IMG/VR virus record: IMGVR_UViG_3300031788_000008
Span: 1-64,000 of that record
Source: a virus
DNA: 64,000 nt
Direction: 5' to 3' (one strand)
Made by a program: the position numbers and the translations under genes. A model generated the notes under the pieces. It was not told where the DNA came from. It made no database searches and saw nothing but the letters and a program-made list of their open reading frames with translations. Of this stretch, positions 9,299-63,280 are shown one piece after another (the stretch's first letter is position 1; every line of letters begins with the position of its first letter).

Positions 9299-10435
9299 TC
9301 AGTATTCATATCCAATTAGAGTAAAAGTGACATTTGCGGTTGTTGTATCACTCAACTGACTGATACCAATTTCTTGTCCCCCGGCAATCTCTAAACCATC
9401 TGGAATACTAATCTCTCCGTAGCCCGCGTTGTTTGTTACACCAGAAGTACTTAGTAACAATCCAAGAACAACCGGAGAAGAAGCATTTACAGTGCTCGCT
9501 GATCGTATACGCAATTTCACATATTCTACAACAGAACTAGGTTCTTGAATTGACGCGCAAAAAGACTGTATTCGTAAAGTTTTCCCAGTTGTCACAGTAT
9601 AAGTAGTAGCTGGAGAACTAACGGTTCCTGCGCGATTGGCACCAACATTAATCAAAGTCTCGGATGTAGTGGTAGCGATAGAATCAATAAACCATACGCA
9701 ATAAACCCTTCCTGTATCTTTGTATTCTATTACAAAAAGATTTTTATTTGTATCTAAAAATAAAGGTTCCAGTACATTACTAGCGTTTTGCCCCATCGCT
9801 ACTGTGCCTGTAGGTGTGGTTACGGATGCTCCAGCGGTGTATTGGGTTCCTCCCCCACCCCCTGAATCTACGATTACATGCTGAGCACTGGGAAAAACAA
9901 CTGTGGCGTTTAAACCGGCCGCTGCGGGTTGAGATACAATAAGATCGCCGTCACCATTCACTGAGATATTAAGCATAGCCCCGGCAGCATCCACTCCAGC
10001 GACTAAAACGGGATTAACTGTAGTTGCACTTGTACCCGCAGCTTGAATTCCCTGCACTAAAGGATCAGCCCAAACAGCCGTTGCATTACCTGGTTGCGAA
10101 ATGGGGATTTGTCCAGCATGGGTTAGGATTCCAATAATTGGTATGCCATTGATCTCTGTGGCGTTGATGACACCAGAGCCAGTAGGGCCTAAAGTAGCAC
10201 CAGAGCCTACAACTAGATTCGCTGTGGTGTTTATCCCACTGAGAATTCCATTAAATGCTATGGATCCCGTGGGGGAAATGAGGGTAGGGTCAATAATTCC
10301 CAACGCATTTAAAGAGACGATTTTACCTGAATCTGCAACGCCGCTACTGGTGACTACCACCCCCACTAGCTGTTCTTTTGACGGACCGCCAGGAACAGAT
10401 TGGGTTATCGAGAAAGTTTTATAAACATCAGGCAC
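9299..10435 (-). CDS. Putative tail fibre / receptor-binding protein on the minus strand
   Basis: A protein of 378 residues starting at a GTG, with a GAGGA ribosome site 7 nt upstream. It is rich in Gly, Thr, Ser and Val. A flexible N-terminal half leads to a Gly5 run near the middle, then a C-terminal beta-rich domain of about 160 residues ending in a Tyr-Glu-Tyr motif. This layout is typical of trimeric fibre tips, but I recognise no specific family. The gene points against all its large neighbours and ends 3 nt from the converging stop at 9295. Its promoter must lie in 10436-10500, where I see no clear minus-strand -35/-10 pair. Confidence 0.45.
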   Translation of the reverse strand: MPDVYKTFSITQSVPGGPSKEQLVGVVVTSSGVADSGKIVSLNALGIIDPTLISPTGSIAFNGILSGINTTANLVVGSGATLGPTGSGVINATEINGIPIIGILTHAGQIPISQPGNATAVWADPLVQGIQAAGTSATTVNPVLVAGVDAAGAMLNISVNGDGDLIVSQPAAAGLNATVVFPSAQHVIVDSGGGGGTQYTAGASVTTPTGTVAMGQNASNVLEPLFLDTNKNLFVIEYKDTGRVYCVWFIDSIATTTSETLINVGANRAGTVSSPATTYTVTTGKTLRIQSFCASIQEPSSVVEYVKLRIRSASTVNASSPVVLGLLLSTSGVTNNAGYGEISIPDGLEIAGGQEIGISQLSDTTTANVTFTLIGYEY

Positions 10436-10511
10436 AATTTTATCCTCGTTTAAAGAAATGAATAGTCAAGCTACATTAAGTTGTTGAAAATAAAGACATT
10501 CAAATAAAATA

Positions 10512-54007: not shown

Positions 54008-56179
54008 ATGAATCGTATTGTATCCGCACTTATCGTTTTTGTATTATTTGTAACCCCAGTTTTTGCTAGAAACCATCCATTGAAACGTCATGTCCGCAAA
54101 GAAGTTACATCGGCTGCTCGTGTAAGTGACCTTCCAGCAGATCGTCAATTGATTATGGCTATTATGTTGCCTCTCCGCAATGAGTCAACTTTAACAGCTC
54201 TTTTACAGCAAATAAACACCCCATCAAGTCCTTTGTATCACCAGTTTCTAACGCCTGAACAATTCACTAAAGAGTTTGGTCCAACGGAACAGGATTATCA
54301 AGCGGTAGTTCGTTTTGCTATAAAGCAGGGGTTTTTTGTGTACAAACAACACACTAATCGTATACTTGTTGATATCACTGGATCTACAGCACAAATAGAA
54401 AAAGCTTTCAATGTAAAAATGGGGTTATATAAACATCCTATTGAAAATCGTAATTTTTATTCTCCAGATGTAGAACCGTCTCTTGATTTAGATGTTCCAA
54501 TCTATCGTATTGCTGGTTTAAATAATTTCTCTATTCCTAGTCGTAGATTGATTAAGCGTTCATTTAACGCTCGTCTATCAGATGTAGTTGCAGGGTCTGG
54601 TCCTAGCGGTTCTTTCCGTCCATCGGATATGCGAGCGGCATATTATGGATCAGGTACTTTGACAGGTACCGGTCAATCTGTGGGCATGTTAGAGTTCGAT
54701 GGTTATAATATCGCAGATGTAAATTCTGATATGGGGGGTGTTGCTTATACCGTACCTGTACAGAATATTCTTGTCGATGGTGCAAGTGCTGGCTCTGATG
54801 GAGATGATGGAGAGCAAGCTTTGGATATCGCTCAAGCTATCGGTATGGCACCGGGGTTAACTTCTGTACGGGTTTACATCGCCCCAGGCAATTCCGCCAT
54901 AGGTACCGGAGATGTGGATATTTTTAATCAAATGGCTGTGGACAACATTTCCAAACAATTGAGTTGTTCTTGGGGTTGGAGTCCCGATGATATAACTGAT
55001 GATGACCCTATTTTTAAAGAATTCGCAGCACAGGGTCAAAATCTTTTTGTAGCCTCTGGAGATGCTGGTAAGTATACGGGAAATAACAATAATGATAGCA
55101 GCTACCCAGCTGAAGATCCGTATGTTGTAGCTGTTGGCGGTACGGATTTAACTACAAATGGTGCTGGAGGAACTTGGCAAACAGAAACGGCTTGGTCGGA
55201 TAGCAGTGGTGGTCCAGCGGACGATGGTTTTGCAATTCCTAGCTGGCAAGTAGGAGTAGCAAATTCTAATGGTGCTTCTACAGCAATTCGTAATGTTCCG
55301 GATGTTGCCGCAGAAGCAAATTTCGATAATATTATGTGTGATGATGGCGCTTGCACTTACAATCAAACTGGGGGTACTAGCTATGCTGCGCCTCGCTGGG
55401 CTGGCTATATGGCTTTAGTGAATCAGCAGAACATGACTAATCATGGTACTACTTTAGGTTTCTTGAATCCCTTGATTTATCCCATTGGTTTCGGTGCTGC
55501 GTACACTATTAATTTTCACGATATTACAAGCGGGAGCAATGGGCATCCGGCTACTGTTGGGTATGATATGGTAACTGGTTGGGGTAGTCCTAATGGGGCA
55601 ACTTTAATCAATACTTTAACAGGCGCTCCAACCGGAGTAGGATTACAAGCAACTTATAATCCAACCTATAAAACTCCAGCATGTACAGTTGTCAGTAATT
55701 CCTGTGATTCAGGCCCAACTCTACTTTTAGGTCGCGGAAATGTGCATAACGGTGCGGAACAAAATCACCCCAATACAATCAATAACTCTTGCGGGGATGG
55801 GAACTCGGGGGTATTTCACTCCTATGAATCAAATGATCGCCTTGCGGTAGCTTCTGTATCTGGTGGGTTGTTAACCGCGGGTACAAAAGCAACGATAACA
55901 GCCACAGTATGGGCTCGAAAGGATTTTGAAAGCGATTCTCTTGACCTTTACGTTACTTCAAATGTTGTAAATCCTACTTGGGTTTATATCGCTACGCTTA
56001 AGCCCACTAAAGATGCACAAAATATTTTATCGACTACATTTACTCTCCCAGCCTCCGGCAATTTACAAGCTGTACGAGCACATTTTCGATATGAGGGACA
56101 TGTGAATCCATCGGCTTGTGGTAATTCTTCTGGTGGAGAGTATGATGATTATGATGATTTAGTTTTTGCGGTGAATTAA
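54008..56179 (+). CDS. Secreted sedolisin (S53) protease with prodomain and C-terminal domain
   Basis: A protein of 723 residues. Residues 1-20 are a signal peptide. Residues ~40-180 are a pro-kumamolisin activation domain (PLYHQFLTPEQFTKEFGPT, IEKAFNVKM). The catalytic domain has Glu269 and Asp273 in GEQALD, Asp352 in ASGDAGK and Ser458 in GGTSYAAP, the S53 Glu-Asp-Asp-Ser set, and a late DMVTGWGSPNG segment near the Ca site. About 180 further residues form a C-terminal beta domain with paired Cys. Sedolisins work at acid pH outside the cell. They are common in Acidobacteriota and very unusual in phages, so it was probably acquired from a host. Its RBS is AGGAGG. Confidence 0.9.
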   Translation: MNRIVSALIVFVLFVTPVFARNHPLKRHVRKEVTSAARVSDLPADRQLIMAIMLPLRNESTLTALLQQINTPSSPLYHQFLTPEQFTKEFGPTEQDYQAVVRFAIKQGFFVYKQHTNRILVDITGSTAQIEKAFNVKMGLYKHPIENRNFYSPDVEPSLDLDVPIYRIAGLNNFSIPSRRLIKRSFNARLSDVVAGSGPSGSFRPSDMRAAYYGSGTLTGTGQSVGMLEFDGYNIADVNSDMGGVAYTVPVQNILVDGASAGSDGDDGEQALDIAQAIGMAPGLTSVRVYIAPGNSAIGTGDVDIFNQMAVDNISKQLSCSWGWSPDDITDDDPIFKEFAAQGQNLFVASGDAGKYTGNNNNDSSYPAEDPYVVAVGGTDLTTNGAGGTWQTETAWSDSSGGPADDGFAIPSWQVGVANSNGASTAIRNVPDVAAEANFDNIMCDDGACTYNQTGGTSYAAPRWAGYMALVNQQNMTNHGTTLGFLNPLIYPIGFGAAYTINFHDITSGSNGHPATVGYDMVTGWGSPNGATLINTLTGAPTGVGLQATYNPTYKTPACTVVSNSCDSGPTLLLGRGNVHNGAEQNHPNTINNSCGDGNSGVFHSYESNDRLAVASVSGGLLTAGTKATITATVWARKDFESDSLDLYVTSNVVNPTWVYIATLKPTKDAQNILSTTFTLPASGNLQAVRAHFRYEGHVNPSACGNSSGGEYDDYDDLVFAVN

Positions 56180-61681: not shown

Positions 61682-61710
61682 TTGACAAATATTCCAACTA
61701 CCAGTATTAT
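61682..61710 (+). promoter_or_regulatory. Strong sigma70-type promoter of the tRNA operon leader
   Basis: TTGACA at 61682-61687, a 17-nt spacer and TATTAT at 61705-61710 (GTATTATA context). This is the best promoter in the window. Transcription should start near 61717, and the leader ribosome site (TAAGG, 61716-61720) lies within the first few bases. Confidence 0.8.
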
Positions 61711-61725
61711 ACTCATAAGGCATTT

Positions 61726-61809
61726 ATGAACAACATTACCCTATCACCGTCATTGTCGTTGCTGGCTTATTACCTTAGCTTGCCACGCGGCGGTGTGTTC
61801 AACGGGTAA
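61726..61809 (+). CDS. 27-residue attenuator leader peptide (Leu/Tyr-rich)
   Basis: ATG 61726 follows TAAGG with 5-nt spacing and ends at TAA 61807-61809. The peptide has 6 Leu and 2 adjacent Tyr in 27 residues. The core from residue 10 is LSLLAYYLSL, codons TTG TCG TTG CTG GCT TAT TAC CTT AGC TTG, preceded by CTA at codon 6. There is no TTA codon. The size, position after a strong promoter, and overlap with mutually exclusive hairpins match leader peptides of classical amino-acid operons. Translation would report availability of charged tRNA-Leu and tRNA-Tyr. No independent function of the peptide is expected. Confidence 0.7.
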   Translation: MNNITLSPSLSLLAYYLSLPRGGVFNG

Positions 61810-61864
61810 ATTTTAACCCGATTCGAATTAACCGCCGCCCCGAAATGGGCGGCTTTTGTTTTTT
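61745..61864 (+). promoter_or_regulatory. Transcription attenuator in front of the Tyr/Leu tRNA genes
   Basis: Four segments pair in exclusive ways. Segment 1 CACCG (61745-61749) pairs with CGGTG (61791-61795). Segment 2 GCGGCGGT (61787-61794) pairs perfectly with segment 3 ACCGCCGC (61831-61838), the antiterminator. Segment 3 also forms the terminator with segment 4 (61834-61840 with 61847-61853). A ribosome stalled on the Leu/Tyr codons at 61753-61776 leaves segment 2 free, so the antiterminator wins. A ribosome that reaches the stop at 61807 covers segment 2, so the terminator forms. Without translation, stem 1:2 again lets the terminator form. The geometry is that of trp/leu-type attenuation; function is inferred. 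Confidence 0.65.
61834..61864 (+). terminator. Attenuator terminator before the tRNA operon
   Basis: GCCGCCC/GGGCGGC with loop CGAAAT followed by TTTTGTTTTTT. It ends transcripts from the 61682 promoter unless segment 3 is sequestered. A second hairpin, CCCAGACT/AGTCTGGG with a TCT loop (61873-61891), follows without a T run and may mark processing before the tRNA. Confidence 0.85.
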
Positions 61865-61903
61865 GTGGTAAGCCCAGACTTCTAGTCTGGGTAGATGACC
61901 TTT

Positions 61904-61996
61904 GCCTAGAACGCAGATACGGTTGGCTGCATCCGGCTGTAACCCGGAATTTGGCTAGTCCAGACAATGGGAGTTCGAATCTCTCTCTAGGCACCA
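61904..61996 (+). tRNA. tRNA-Tyr (anticodon GTA)
   Basis: 93 nt with encoded ACCA. Acceptor GCCTAGA/TCTAGGC, D stem GCAG/CTGC, anticodon stem TCCGG/CCGGA with loop CTGTAAC (anticodon GTA), long variable arm as in bacterial tRNA-Tyr, T loop TTCGAAT. All key positions look intact. First tRNA after the attenuator. Confidence 0.9.
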
Positions 61997-62015
61997 AAAT
62001 TTTATAGGGGTGATT

Positions 62016-62291
62016 ATGGAAAAATTCATGTCCAGATCGGAACAGAAACGAGTAGCTTCAATGAAGGGAGAGCCCGCGCCTTCATTTGAGATTAGAGTTG
62101 AATACGATGATGGCGAATCGGTTTGGCATGATGGTAAAAGTCCTTTTTGTACACGCAGGGATCGCCCAATGGGAATGTACGCTATGATGCCGGATGACAC
62201 GCAGCGGCCTTTAAATATAGGGTACATGCGTGTGAGTGAAATGCAAGGATTGGAAAAACTCCTCAATGAAATTTTAAATTTTAAGAAATAG
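62016..62291 (+). CDS. Small hypothetical protein inside the tRNA operon
   Basis: ATG 62016 is chosen because GGGG at 62007-62010 serves as ribosome site; GTG 62010 lies inside it. The 91-residue product is polar, with SFEIRVEYDDGESVWHDGKSPF in its first half and a helical end (VSEMQGLEKLLNEILNFKK). No family recognised. It sits 20 nt after tRNA-Tyr and 5 nt before the first tRNA-Leu, so it would be induced with the tRNAs and may share their purpose. Confidence 0.55.
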   Translation: MEKFMSRSEQKRVASMKGEPAPSFEIRVEYDDGESVWHDGKSPFCTRRDRPMGMYAMMPDDTQRPLNIGYMRVSEMQGLEKLLNEILNFKK

Positions 62292-62295
62292 TTTT

Positions 62296-62380
62296 GCGGC
62301 TGTGGTGGAATGGGCAGACACACCATCTTGAGGGGGTGGCGTCGAAAGATGTGAGAGTTCAAATCTCTCCAGCCGCACCA
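62296..62380 (+). tRNA. tRNA-Leu (anticodon GAG)
   Basis: 85 nt with encoded ACCA. Acceptor GCGGCTG/CAGCCGC, anticodon stem CCATC/GGTGG with loop TTGAGGG (anticodon GAG), long variable arm, T loop TTCAAAT. The discriminator A73 is the main Leu identity base. Reads CUU and CUC. Confidence 0.9.
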
Positions 62381-62404
62381 AGTTTAGAGTCAAACCGTAG
62401 TTGT

Positions 62405-62503
62405 GAGGTTGCAACGGGGAGCTAACACAATGCTGCTCGATAAGAAGCGAAAGCTTCCGCTCGCGGGCGTAAGGTCGGGGTGCAGGCGTTGATCCGTTGC
62501 CTC
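62405..62503 (+). ncRNA. Candidate structured RNA between two tRNA-Leu genes
   Basis: A closing stem of GCAACGG (62411-62417) with CCGTTGC (62494-62500), flanked by GAG/CTC, encloses at least two hairpins: GAGC/GCTC (62419-62422 with 62435-62438), and GAAGC/GCTTC capped by a GAAA tetraloop (62444-62457). It is GC-rich relative to the surroundings, has no open frame of note, and cannot be folded into a tRNA. It would be co-transcribed with the tRNAs. Confidence 0.4.
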
Positions 62504-62515
62504 TAAAATAAGTTT

Positions 62516-62601
62516 GCCGGGTTGGTGGAATTGGGAGACACTCTGGACTTAGGATCCAGCGGTTAACAGCCATGCAGGTTCGACCCCTGTACTCGGCACC
62601 A
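62516..62601 (+). tRNA. tRNA-Leu (anticodon TAG)
   Basis: 86 nt with encoded ACCA. Acceptor GCCGGGT/ACTCGGC (one G-U), anticodon stem CTGGA/TCCAG with loop CTTAGGA (anticodon TAG), long variable arm, T loop TTCGACC, A73. Reads CUA and, by wobble, other CUN codons. Confidence 0.9.
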
Positions 62602-62608
62602 AAAATTT

Positions 62609-62699
62609 GCGCGGGTGATGAAACTAGGGAGACATGCAGCGTTCAGACCGCTGTGCCCTTAAACAAGGCGTGCAGGTTCAATTCCTGTTCCGCGCACCA
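62609..62699 (+). tRNA. tRNA-Leu (anticodon CAG)
   Basis: 91 nt with encoded ACCA. Acceptor GCGCGGG/TCCGCGC (one G-U), anticodon stem CAGCG/CGCTG with loop TTCAGAC (anticodon CAG), long variable arm, T loop TTCAATT, A73. Reads CUG. Confidence 0.9.
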
Positions 62700-62712
62700 A
62701 TTTTGTAGATAG

Positions 62713-62803
62713 GCCAGAATGGCGGAATTAGGGAGACGCGCACGGCTCAAGCCCGTGTGAGCCTAAAAAACTCGTGGGGGTTCGATTCCCCCTTCTGGCA
62801 CCA
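62713..62803 (+). tRNA. tRNA-Leu (anticodon CAA)
   Basis: 91 nt with encoded ACCA. Acceptor GCCAGAA/TTCTGGC, anticodon stem CACGG/CCGTG with loop CTCAAGC (anticodon CAA), long variable arm, T loop TTCGATT, A73. Reads UUG. Last tRNA of the operon; no clear terminator follows within 100 nt. Confidence 0.9.
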
Positions 62804-62992: not shown

Positions 62993-63025
62993 AAATATCC
63001 ATTTTCAGTGTTTCCGATGTATAAT
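62993..63025 (+). promoter_or_regulatory. Phage promoter, 31-nt class (copy 2)
   Basis: The 31 bases at 62993-63023 are identical to those at 63240-63270 and continue into TATAAT (63020-63025). The ATG of the next gene lies 6 nt after the -10, so the mRNA would begin at or near the start codon. Confidence 0.65.
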
Positions 63026-63030
63026 TGGGT

Positions 63031-63240
63031 ATGGATATCACACTAAAAATTAAAAGGATCAGTGTCTTAACTGGTCACGGTACTGATAGGATTTACCTTT
63101 ATTTTGATCTGCCTACAACATTTCCTGACTGGCCGCTTGAGGAATGTTCCGCAGTCATCGAAGCGACTAAAGGTTACGGCGTTGCCTGGGTAAAAGAAAA
63201 TTTCCACCTAGAACCAGATGTAGTTTCGTCCTGTTTCTGA
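63031..63240 (+). CDS. Small hypothetical protein, probably leaderless mRNA
   Basis: A 69-residue protein from ATG 63031; an in-frame TTG at 63025 overlaps the -10 box and is unlikely. The sequence is mixed (ITLKIKRISVLTGHGTDRIYLYFDLP, then VIEATKGYGVAWVKENFHL) with no known motif. Its stop abuts the next copy of the same promoter, so gene and promoter form a repeated unit. Confidence 0.5.
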   Translation: MDITLKIKRISVLTGHGTDRIYLYFDLPTTFPDWPLEECSAVIEATKGYGVAWVKENFHLEPDVVSSCF

Positions 63241-63272
63241 AATATCCATTTTCAGTGTTTCCGATGTATACT
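63240..63272 (+). promoter_or_regulatory. Phage promoter, 31-nt class (copy 3)
   Basis: Identical over 31 nt to the block at 62993, ending here in TATACT (63267-63272). The following ATG at 63281 is 9 nt after the -10, leaving a leader of only about 1-3 nt. Its first base is the last base of the preceding stop codon. Confidence 0.65.
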
Positions 63273-63280
63273 AGGGATGT

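Follow-up and report, generated by a model that had tools for sequence, protein, structure and literature searches.

Putative ribosome-mediated attenuators ahead of tRNA operons in an uncultivated phage and its relatives

In the trp, his, leu, thr, ilv and pheA attenuators of Enterobacteria, a promoter and a codon-rich short ORF are followed by alternative 1:2, 2:3 and 3:4 pairings and by a U-run terminator before the first gene, and stalling of the leader ribosome causes read-through. Feedback on the charging and decoding apparatus is known from pheST- and thrS-type control, with pheST using a leader-peptide attenuator, and T-box elements choose between terminator and antiterminator in response to tRNA. 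The reason for, and the timing of, tRNA use by phages have been debated for decades. Goldfarb and Daniel reportedly described in 1980 how transcription of the T4 tRNA operon is controlled (cited in PMC9693318). Phage T4 and the Xanthomonas phage XacN1 carry large tRNA complements, as do the viruses described below, and the XacN1 set likewise covers all 20 amino acids and includes CUA suppressor tRNAs (PMC5852040). Phage tRNAs have been interpreted as a counter-defence against anticodon nucleases (PMC10264068, PMC11555353), which explains how replacement tRNAs would be of use once host tRNAs have been cut; the former paper makes no mention of leaders, operons or attenuation.

The locus described here has the same layout as the enterobacterial attenuators and stands before a tRNA operon. 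It lies in a stretch of 64,000 nucleotides (hereafter the window), positions 1 to 64,000 of the IMG/VR record IMGVR_UViG_3300031788_000008, which belongs to an uncultivated virus and is 75,792 bases long. The initial annotation of the window had proposed trp/leu/his-type attenuation at this locus, and the proposal gained support from the retention of the leader frame and pairing in relatives and from matching leaders before five other operon types. It had also known of no phage tRNA operon under such control; our own search, which covered open-access papers, likewise turned up no tRNA operon under attenuation.

The Tyr/Leu locus of the window

A promoter, a 27-codon leader, three stems, a T-run terminator and genes for tRNA-Tyr and four tRNA-Leu, from which the initial annotation had assembled its attenuator, were all found in place on the plus strand. 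The candidate promoter, a sigma-70-type TTGACA-N17-TATTAT at 61682-61710, was identified purely as a consensus match (11/12) and was the top-scoring site between 59 and 64 kb, a region in which promoter-like sites occur in chance numbers. The leader ORF (61726-61809, MNNITLSPSLSLLAYYLSLPRGGVFNG) is preceded by AAGG 6 nt 5′ of its ATG. Its control-codon stretch (61741-61782) contains the Leu codons CTA, TTG, TTG, CTG, CTT and TTG and the Tyr codons TAT and TAC, so that a codon is present for 5/5 operon anticodons, and all eight own-class codons lie upstream of the antiterminator arm.

Segment 1 (CACCG, 61745-61749) is predicted to form a protector stem with CGGTG of segment 2 (61791-61795). The outer 5′ arm of the antiterminator, GCGGCGGT (segment 2, 61787-61794), pairs with ACCGCCGC (segment 3, 61831-61838), which overlaps the 5′ arm of the terminator. 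This pairing had been predicted correctly, but its extent had been underestimated, because an inner helix stacks on GCGGCGGT/ACCGCCGC: GTTCAACGGGT, running on to 61807 (CGGGT, 61803-61807), pairs with ACCCG...GAAT (ACCCG at 61816-61820), which gives an antiterminator of 18 pairs with the stop codon in its loop. The intrinsic terminator (61834-61862) reads GCCGCCC-CGAAAT-GGGCGGC plus TTTTGTTTT; its stem pairs GCCGCCC (61834-61840) with GGGCGGC (61847-61853) and is followed by TTTTGTTTTTT. Between the terminator and the first tRNA lies a perfect 8-bp hairpin, CCCAGACT-TCT-AGTCTGGG (61872-61890), which is perhaps a processing signal. The operon then comprises tRNA-Tyr (gta, 61904-61996), a 93-aa ORF of no assigned function (62010-62291) and tRNA-Leu genes with anticodons gag (62296-62380), tag (62516-62601), cag (62609-62699) and caa (62713-62803), and CCA is encoded in all five tRNA genes.

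Of 200 dinucleotide shuffles of the leader RNA, 199 folded less well than the native sequence (z -2.5). The full-length minimum-energy fold of the leader contains both the 1:2 stem and the terminator, and the predicted resting state is therefore off. None of the Rfam operon leaders (Trp, Leu, Thr, His, Phe) matched it at gathering threshold, and the top model, RF00513 Trp_leader, scored far below (17.8 bits against a threshold of 41).

Other features of the window were noted beside this locus. A protein search with a 74-aa ORF upstream of the leader returned no relatives. A near-identical 37-bp direct repeat, found by self-matching at about 62993-63029 and 63240-63276, holds the promoter-like sequence AAATATCCATTTTCAGTGTTTCCGATGTATA, and each copy precedes one of two small ORFs. 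An ORF of 723 aa (54008-56179) presumably resembles a secreted S53-type serine peptidase, which we take to be unusual in a phage; a PHROG search with it gave no match.

Relatives and further tRNA operons

A DNA-metabolism exonuclease encoded 3 kb upstream led to two relatives, G002 (a 332-kb contig with a 74% identical protein) and G003 (170 kb, 61%). Both carry Tyr/Leu tRNA arrays immediately preceded by a Leu/Tyr-rich leader (MTRVSLSLALLYTLLSGGGSGVFNG and MTNLTLSLTLYSLLSGLHGGVFIG, respectively) and a terminator. Additional records came from pattern scans with conserved leader stretches, which brought the total to seven distinct Tyr/Leu operons. According to the initial annotation, related phages that kept the tRNAs but lost the leader frame or the pairing would speak against the attenuator; the opposite was found, as 7/7 distinct Tyr/Leu operons retain antiterminator and terminator along with a Leu/Tyr leader in frame. 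By inspection, the 1:2 pairing is held by altered sequences in G012 (CGACC/GGTCG) and G002 (CACTGG/CCGGTG); this protector stem is present in the window fold and, by inspection, in most relatives, and is not clear in G003. The Tyr/Leu leaders contain one TTA codon each in G012 and G013, and they are also Ser-rich, though tRNA-Ser is absent from the operon.

The Tyr/Leu pattern scan gave 13 loci, with tRNA leaders only at those of G002-G004; the remaining loci were rejected as chance matches. Among cultured phages, no DNA relative was found except at single tRNAs, and exonuclease matches were below 60% identity. A scan of genome contigs with the pattern of the GNN leader (the Val/Ala/Cys/Asp/Gly/Glu class below) gave 35 loci, none with a tRNA array; we regard these as chance coding matches, and thus neither a copy in a cell or prophage nor a host was found.

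The same architecture was found upstream of five further operon types, namely Ser/Leu(UAA), Ile/Thr/Gln, Trp/His/Arg/Asn/Gln/Lys, Pro/Met/Phe and Val/Ala/Cys/Asp/Gly/Glu (GNN). After removal of near-duplicates, the set comprised 26 leaders of six classes from ten records, with up to five such attenuators in one phage record. The leaders are 22 to 48 codons long, in frame, and most have a -10-like GTATTAT element upstream. In the Ser/Leu(TAA) leader (MNRISSLSSSSSSFGGFGERVRWRGW), the sole Leu codon is TTA, the codon of the operon's tRNA-Leu(TAA), and the Trp/His/Arg/Asn/Gln/Lys leader (MTSMKHNTVARKQWRNRRHDGVGLSSDTEFGK) has CGA, CGG, CGT and CGC; the Ile/Thr/Gln, Pro/Met/Phe and GNN leaders read MKQTQTTRTTTTQRIITGVRVDVSEGWDD, MTKMRPMPMFPPSPMGRGVAGL and MNKIHTNSNAVCTEHGTVAAAAAVGDTVSSDGWDG, respectively. 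A single leader samples up to 13 anticodons for 2-8 amino acids. Often the first tRNA starts 9-24 nt after the terminator, which leaves no space for an intervening promoter.

Leaders were also recovered by a scan that was blind to tRNAs and required a terminator, a short ATG ORF and an across-stop hairpin overlapping the terminator arm. Across the 637 kb of four whole records, in which there were 227 terminator-like sites, it gave 16 matches. Eight of them lay immediately upstream of tRNA operons, and 8/8 of these were leaders with matching codons; its thresholds had been loosened once after a stricter version missed known leaders, so the scan was blind to tRNAs and not to leader structure. 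The single match in the window's 75.8-kb record was the Tyr/Leu leader, and a previously missed leader (MNSILQNVGVVVTVRVGVCAAEHGTVAVDAAAVGDMVSSEGWGG) was added before the GNN operon of G012. There were no matches in the first 50 kb of phage XacN1, which hold 28 tRNAs.

The records differ in details of tRNA content. In G002 and G004, with 49 and 69 tRNA matches, respectively, tRNA genes are grouped in operons by amino acid, for example all GNN codons and Cys together. A bacterial class A RNase P RNA occurs in nine records (G003, L010 11609-11959; single copies in G001, G002, G004, G005, G006, G007, G008 and G012), at coordinates inside the Val/Ala/Cys/Asp/Gly/Glu tRNA operon, and it is therefore predicted to be under the same attenuator control. 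A permuted (two-piece) tmRNA scored above the Rfam threshold in G002 (L027 7575-7802) and G004 (L058 12942-13163), and also in G005, G008 and G014. The Ser/Leu(TAA) operon of G007 (L064 6720-6880) has no intact leader; it has a terminator and a remnant of a Ser-codon run, AGTTCAACTAGTAGCTCC, with no start codon, which may be a decayed leader or an assembly collapse. Leaders are absent before some single tRNAs and before the clusters of CTA (amber) anticodon tRNAs, which hold one to three such genes, often with tRNA-Lys (G002 192202-192488; L058 8747-9667; L062 about 9326-10461; L069 7024-7543). Amber recoding by these tRNAs was considered and is unsupported, as TAG is still an ordinary stop in long ORFs.

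Competing hairpins and leader codons

When RNA was folded up to the 5′ arm of the terminator, a stop-spanning hairpin that takes up this arm formed in 26/26 leaders (5-25 pairs, mostly at least 15). With the region before the stop masked, a terminator hairpin overlapping the same arm formed in nearly all 26. The antiterminator and the terminator are thus mutually exclusive with one common arm, and this arrangement is conserved with covariation. Arm complementarity persists despite sequence change in the Pro/Met/Phe leaders (GCGCGGGG/CCCCGCGC in G003, GCGTCGGGA/TCCCGACGC in G004) and in the GNN leaders (GTCCTCGG/CCGAGGAC in G001, GTCCCTTGG/CCAAGGGAC in G003). A search for covariation in related contigs, suggested by the initial annotation, bore out the pairing of the antiterminator arms: in 24 of 25 leaders, the native halves had a more stable fold than same-class chimeras did on average (mean difference -5.2 kcal/mol; Wilcoxon, 6e-8). 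The covariation rests on this intramolecular chimera test, since an RNAduplex swap test was confounded by alternative registers; it was used in place of pair counting on MAFFT alignments, where the arms shift register and some stretches were poorly delimited. For G003, the antiterminator is preferred in the minimum-energy fold of the full-length leader.

At least in the Pro/Met/Phe class, the leader could act not as a simple intrinsic terminator switch but through polymerase pausing or the coupling of translation to transcription, perhaps with Rho. Most leaders of this class lack a good U-run, their terminators are atypical, and in two records the hairpin overlaps the first tRNA; moreover, polymerase could pause at a conserved mid-leader hairpin that inspection showed in, for example, Tyr/Leu leaders (CCTGC-TTA-GCGGG) and GNN leaders (GCCGCT-N3-GCGGC). 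However, textbook U-run terminators overlap the antiterminator arm in five of the six classes, Tyr/Leu included, and we consider this explanation unlikely. In the Pro/Met/Phe operons at L060 13916-14087 and L125 12700-12874, the competing hairpin draws its remaining part from the first tRNA-Pro, at the 5′ end of that tRNA, where other leaders have a U-run terminator; this may point to a variant acting on the folding or processing of the tRNA.

The leader codons correspond to the operons that follow. When all 720 assignments of leaders to classes were scored, the true one came out on top with 20.4 (runner-up 16.7, mean -0.35). Per-leader binomial p-values for own-class codon enrichment ranged from 4e-7 to 0.06, the two Trp/His/Arg/Asn/Gln/Lys leaders being weakly enriched singly (0.06 and 0.02). 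Operon anticodons were covered by leaders in 167 of 175 cases, compared with 141.8±3.8 after synonymous resampling, in which the peptides were fixed and codons were redrawn from the phage's own usage, and 0/2000 draws did as well. Together, enrichment and coverage indicate leaders that favour the appropriate amino acids and, beyond this, sample different isoacceptors. Own-class codons made up 299 of 524 codons before the antiterminator arm versus 51 of 242 inside it (Fisher, 1.6e-21); in the Val/Ala/Cys/Asp/Gly/Glu class alone, they were no rarer inside the arm (115/184 before, 37/66 inside). Every leader has at least five own-class codons with the A-site at least 14 nt upstream of the arm, a placement that the geometry of a stall would require. 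Because the leaders are of common descent, all of these tests count more independent observations than there are.

It might be argued that the hairpin is a fixed, unregulated terminator or processing element, as hairpins ahead of tRNAs can act as processing signals, and that the small ORF has another role, its codon bias reflecting a sink for tRNA demand or a function of the peptide. Such an account leaves unexplained the matching of six leaders with six operons, the placement of own codons ahead of the arm and the covarying alternative hairpin that would destroy the terminator, and we hold it to be very improbable. A T-box-like element, whose leader RNA binds uncharged tRNA directly and needs no translation, the ORF being fortuitous, would fit a terminator/antiterminator switch answering tRNA, which is typical of T-boxes. 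However, the window leader gave no T-box match in Rfam up to E 10, and the loci of six relatives gave none at gathering threshold. Moreover, 7-30 matching codons run in one frame of 22 to 48 codons, rather than one specifier codon, and one leader samples nearly every isoacceptor and up to 13 anticodons, so that direct tRNA binding seems highly implausible. An assembly or annotation artefact has next to no probability, for although the contigs are metagenomic, the arrangement recurs in 10 non-identical contigs, mostly from separate samples, with a G+C content of 42-56% in four whole records.

Putative mechanism and comparison with known systems

Overall, the locus is very probably a ribosome-mediated transcription attenuator, one that controls the very tRNAs by which its leader is read. 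Its anatomy and conservation, the codon matching and the covarying, mutually exclusive folds are seen in the sequences; that transcription terminates there, that the leader is translated, what triggers the response, in which direction it goes and what it is for, we infer. Transcription would begin near 61717, and a ribosome would start on the 27-codon leader. When Leu- and Tyr-tRNAs are plentiful, the ribosome would reach the stop codon (61807-61809) and cover segment 2, the 3:4 terminator would form, and transcription would stop near 61862, upstream of the tRNA genes. With a shortage of tRNA-Tyr or of one or more of the four Leu isoacceptors, the ribosome would stall on CTA, TTG, CTG, CTT, TAT or TAC and occupy segment 1; segment 2 would then be free to form the 18-pair 2:3 antiterminator, and the polymerase would read through into the tRNA-Tyr and tRNA-Leu genes. 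The new tRNAs would relieve the stall, providing negative feedback. With zero translation, the 1:2 and 3:4 stems would form and the operon would be off. One leader would act as an OR sensor over many codons.

Because relatives use the circuit on five other tRNA operons with matching leaders, tRNA supply would fall into six or more groups, each sensed independently. We think it fairly likely that in this group of large phages nearly all tRNA genes and the phage's RNase P RNA belong to at least six attenuator regulons, whose leaders serve as test strips holding nearly every regulon codon, and that phage tRNA pools are set by decoding speed and respond group by group when host tRNAs disappear in the course of infection or when tRNA-cleaving defences act. 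The circuit would serve to make good the host tRNAs that degradation or such defences remove, and it is a reasonable inference that replacement tRNAs are made only on need; codon supplementation is possible under the same circuit. If this holds, a codon-sensing switch for each tRNA group provides on-demand tRNA expression with slow decoding of specific codons as the signal, and leader-reporter fusions could directly and cheaply separate constant codon supplementation from the replacement of lost tRNAs. Such natural multi-codon tRNA sensors are also potential tools.

Our best reading is that a known mechanism acts here on tRNA operons, a target not described in the open-access papers searched, the tRNA products closing the feedback loop. 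Ribosome-mediated attenuation would thereby be extended from biosynthetic genes to tRNAs, with the sensor's substrate as its own product. The grouped operons are unlike the tRNA genes of XacN1, in which isotypes are mixed and genes are interspersed (PMC5852040). Enterobacterial attenuators regulate biosynthetic enzymes, whereas the phage-borne ones precede the tRNAs themselves and reached the threshold of no Rfam leader family; compared with the textbook cases, the product here would relieve its own inducing stall, and the leader covers many codons. In pheST- and thrS-type control the product is a synthetase, whereas here it is tRNA. With T-box riboswitches the phage leaders have in common a terminator/antiterminator switch, which in these viruses would be set by a translated run of codons.
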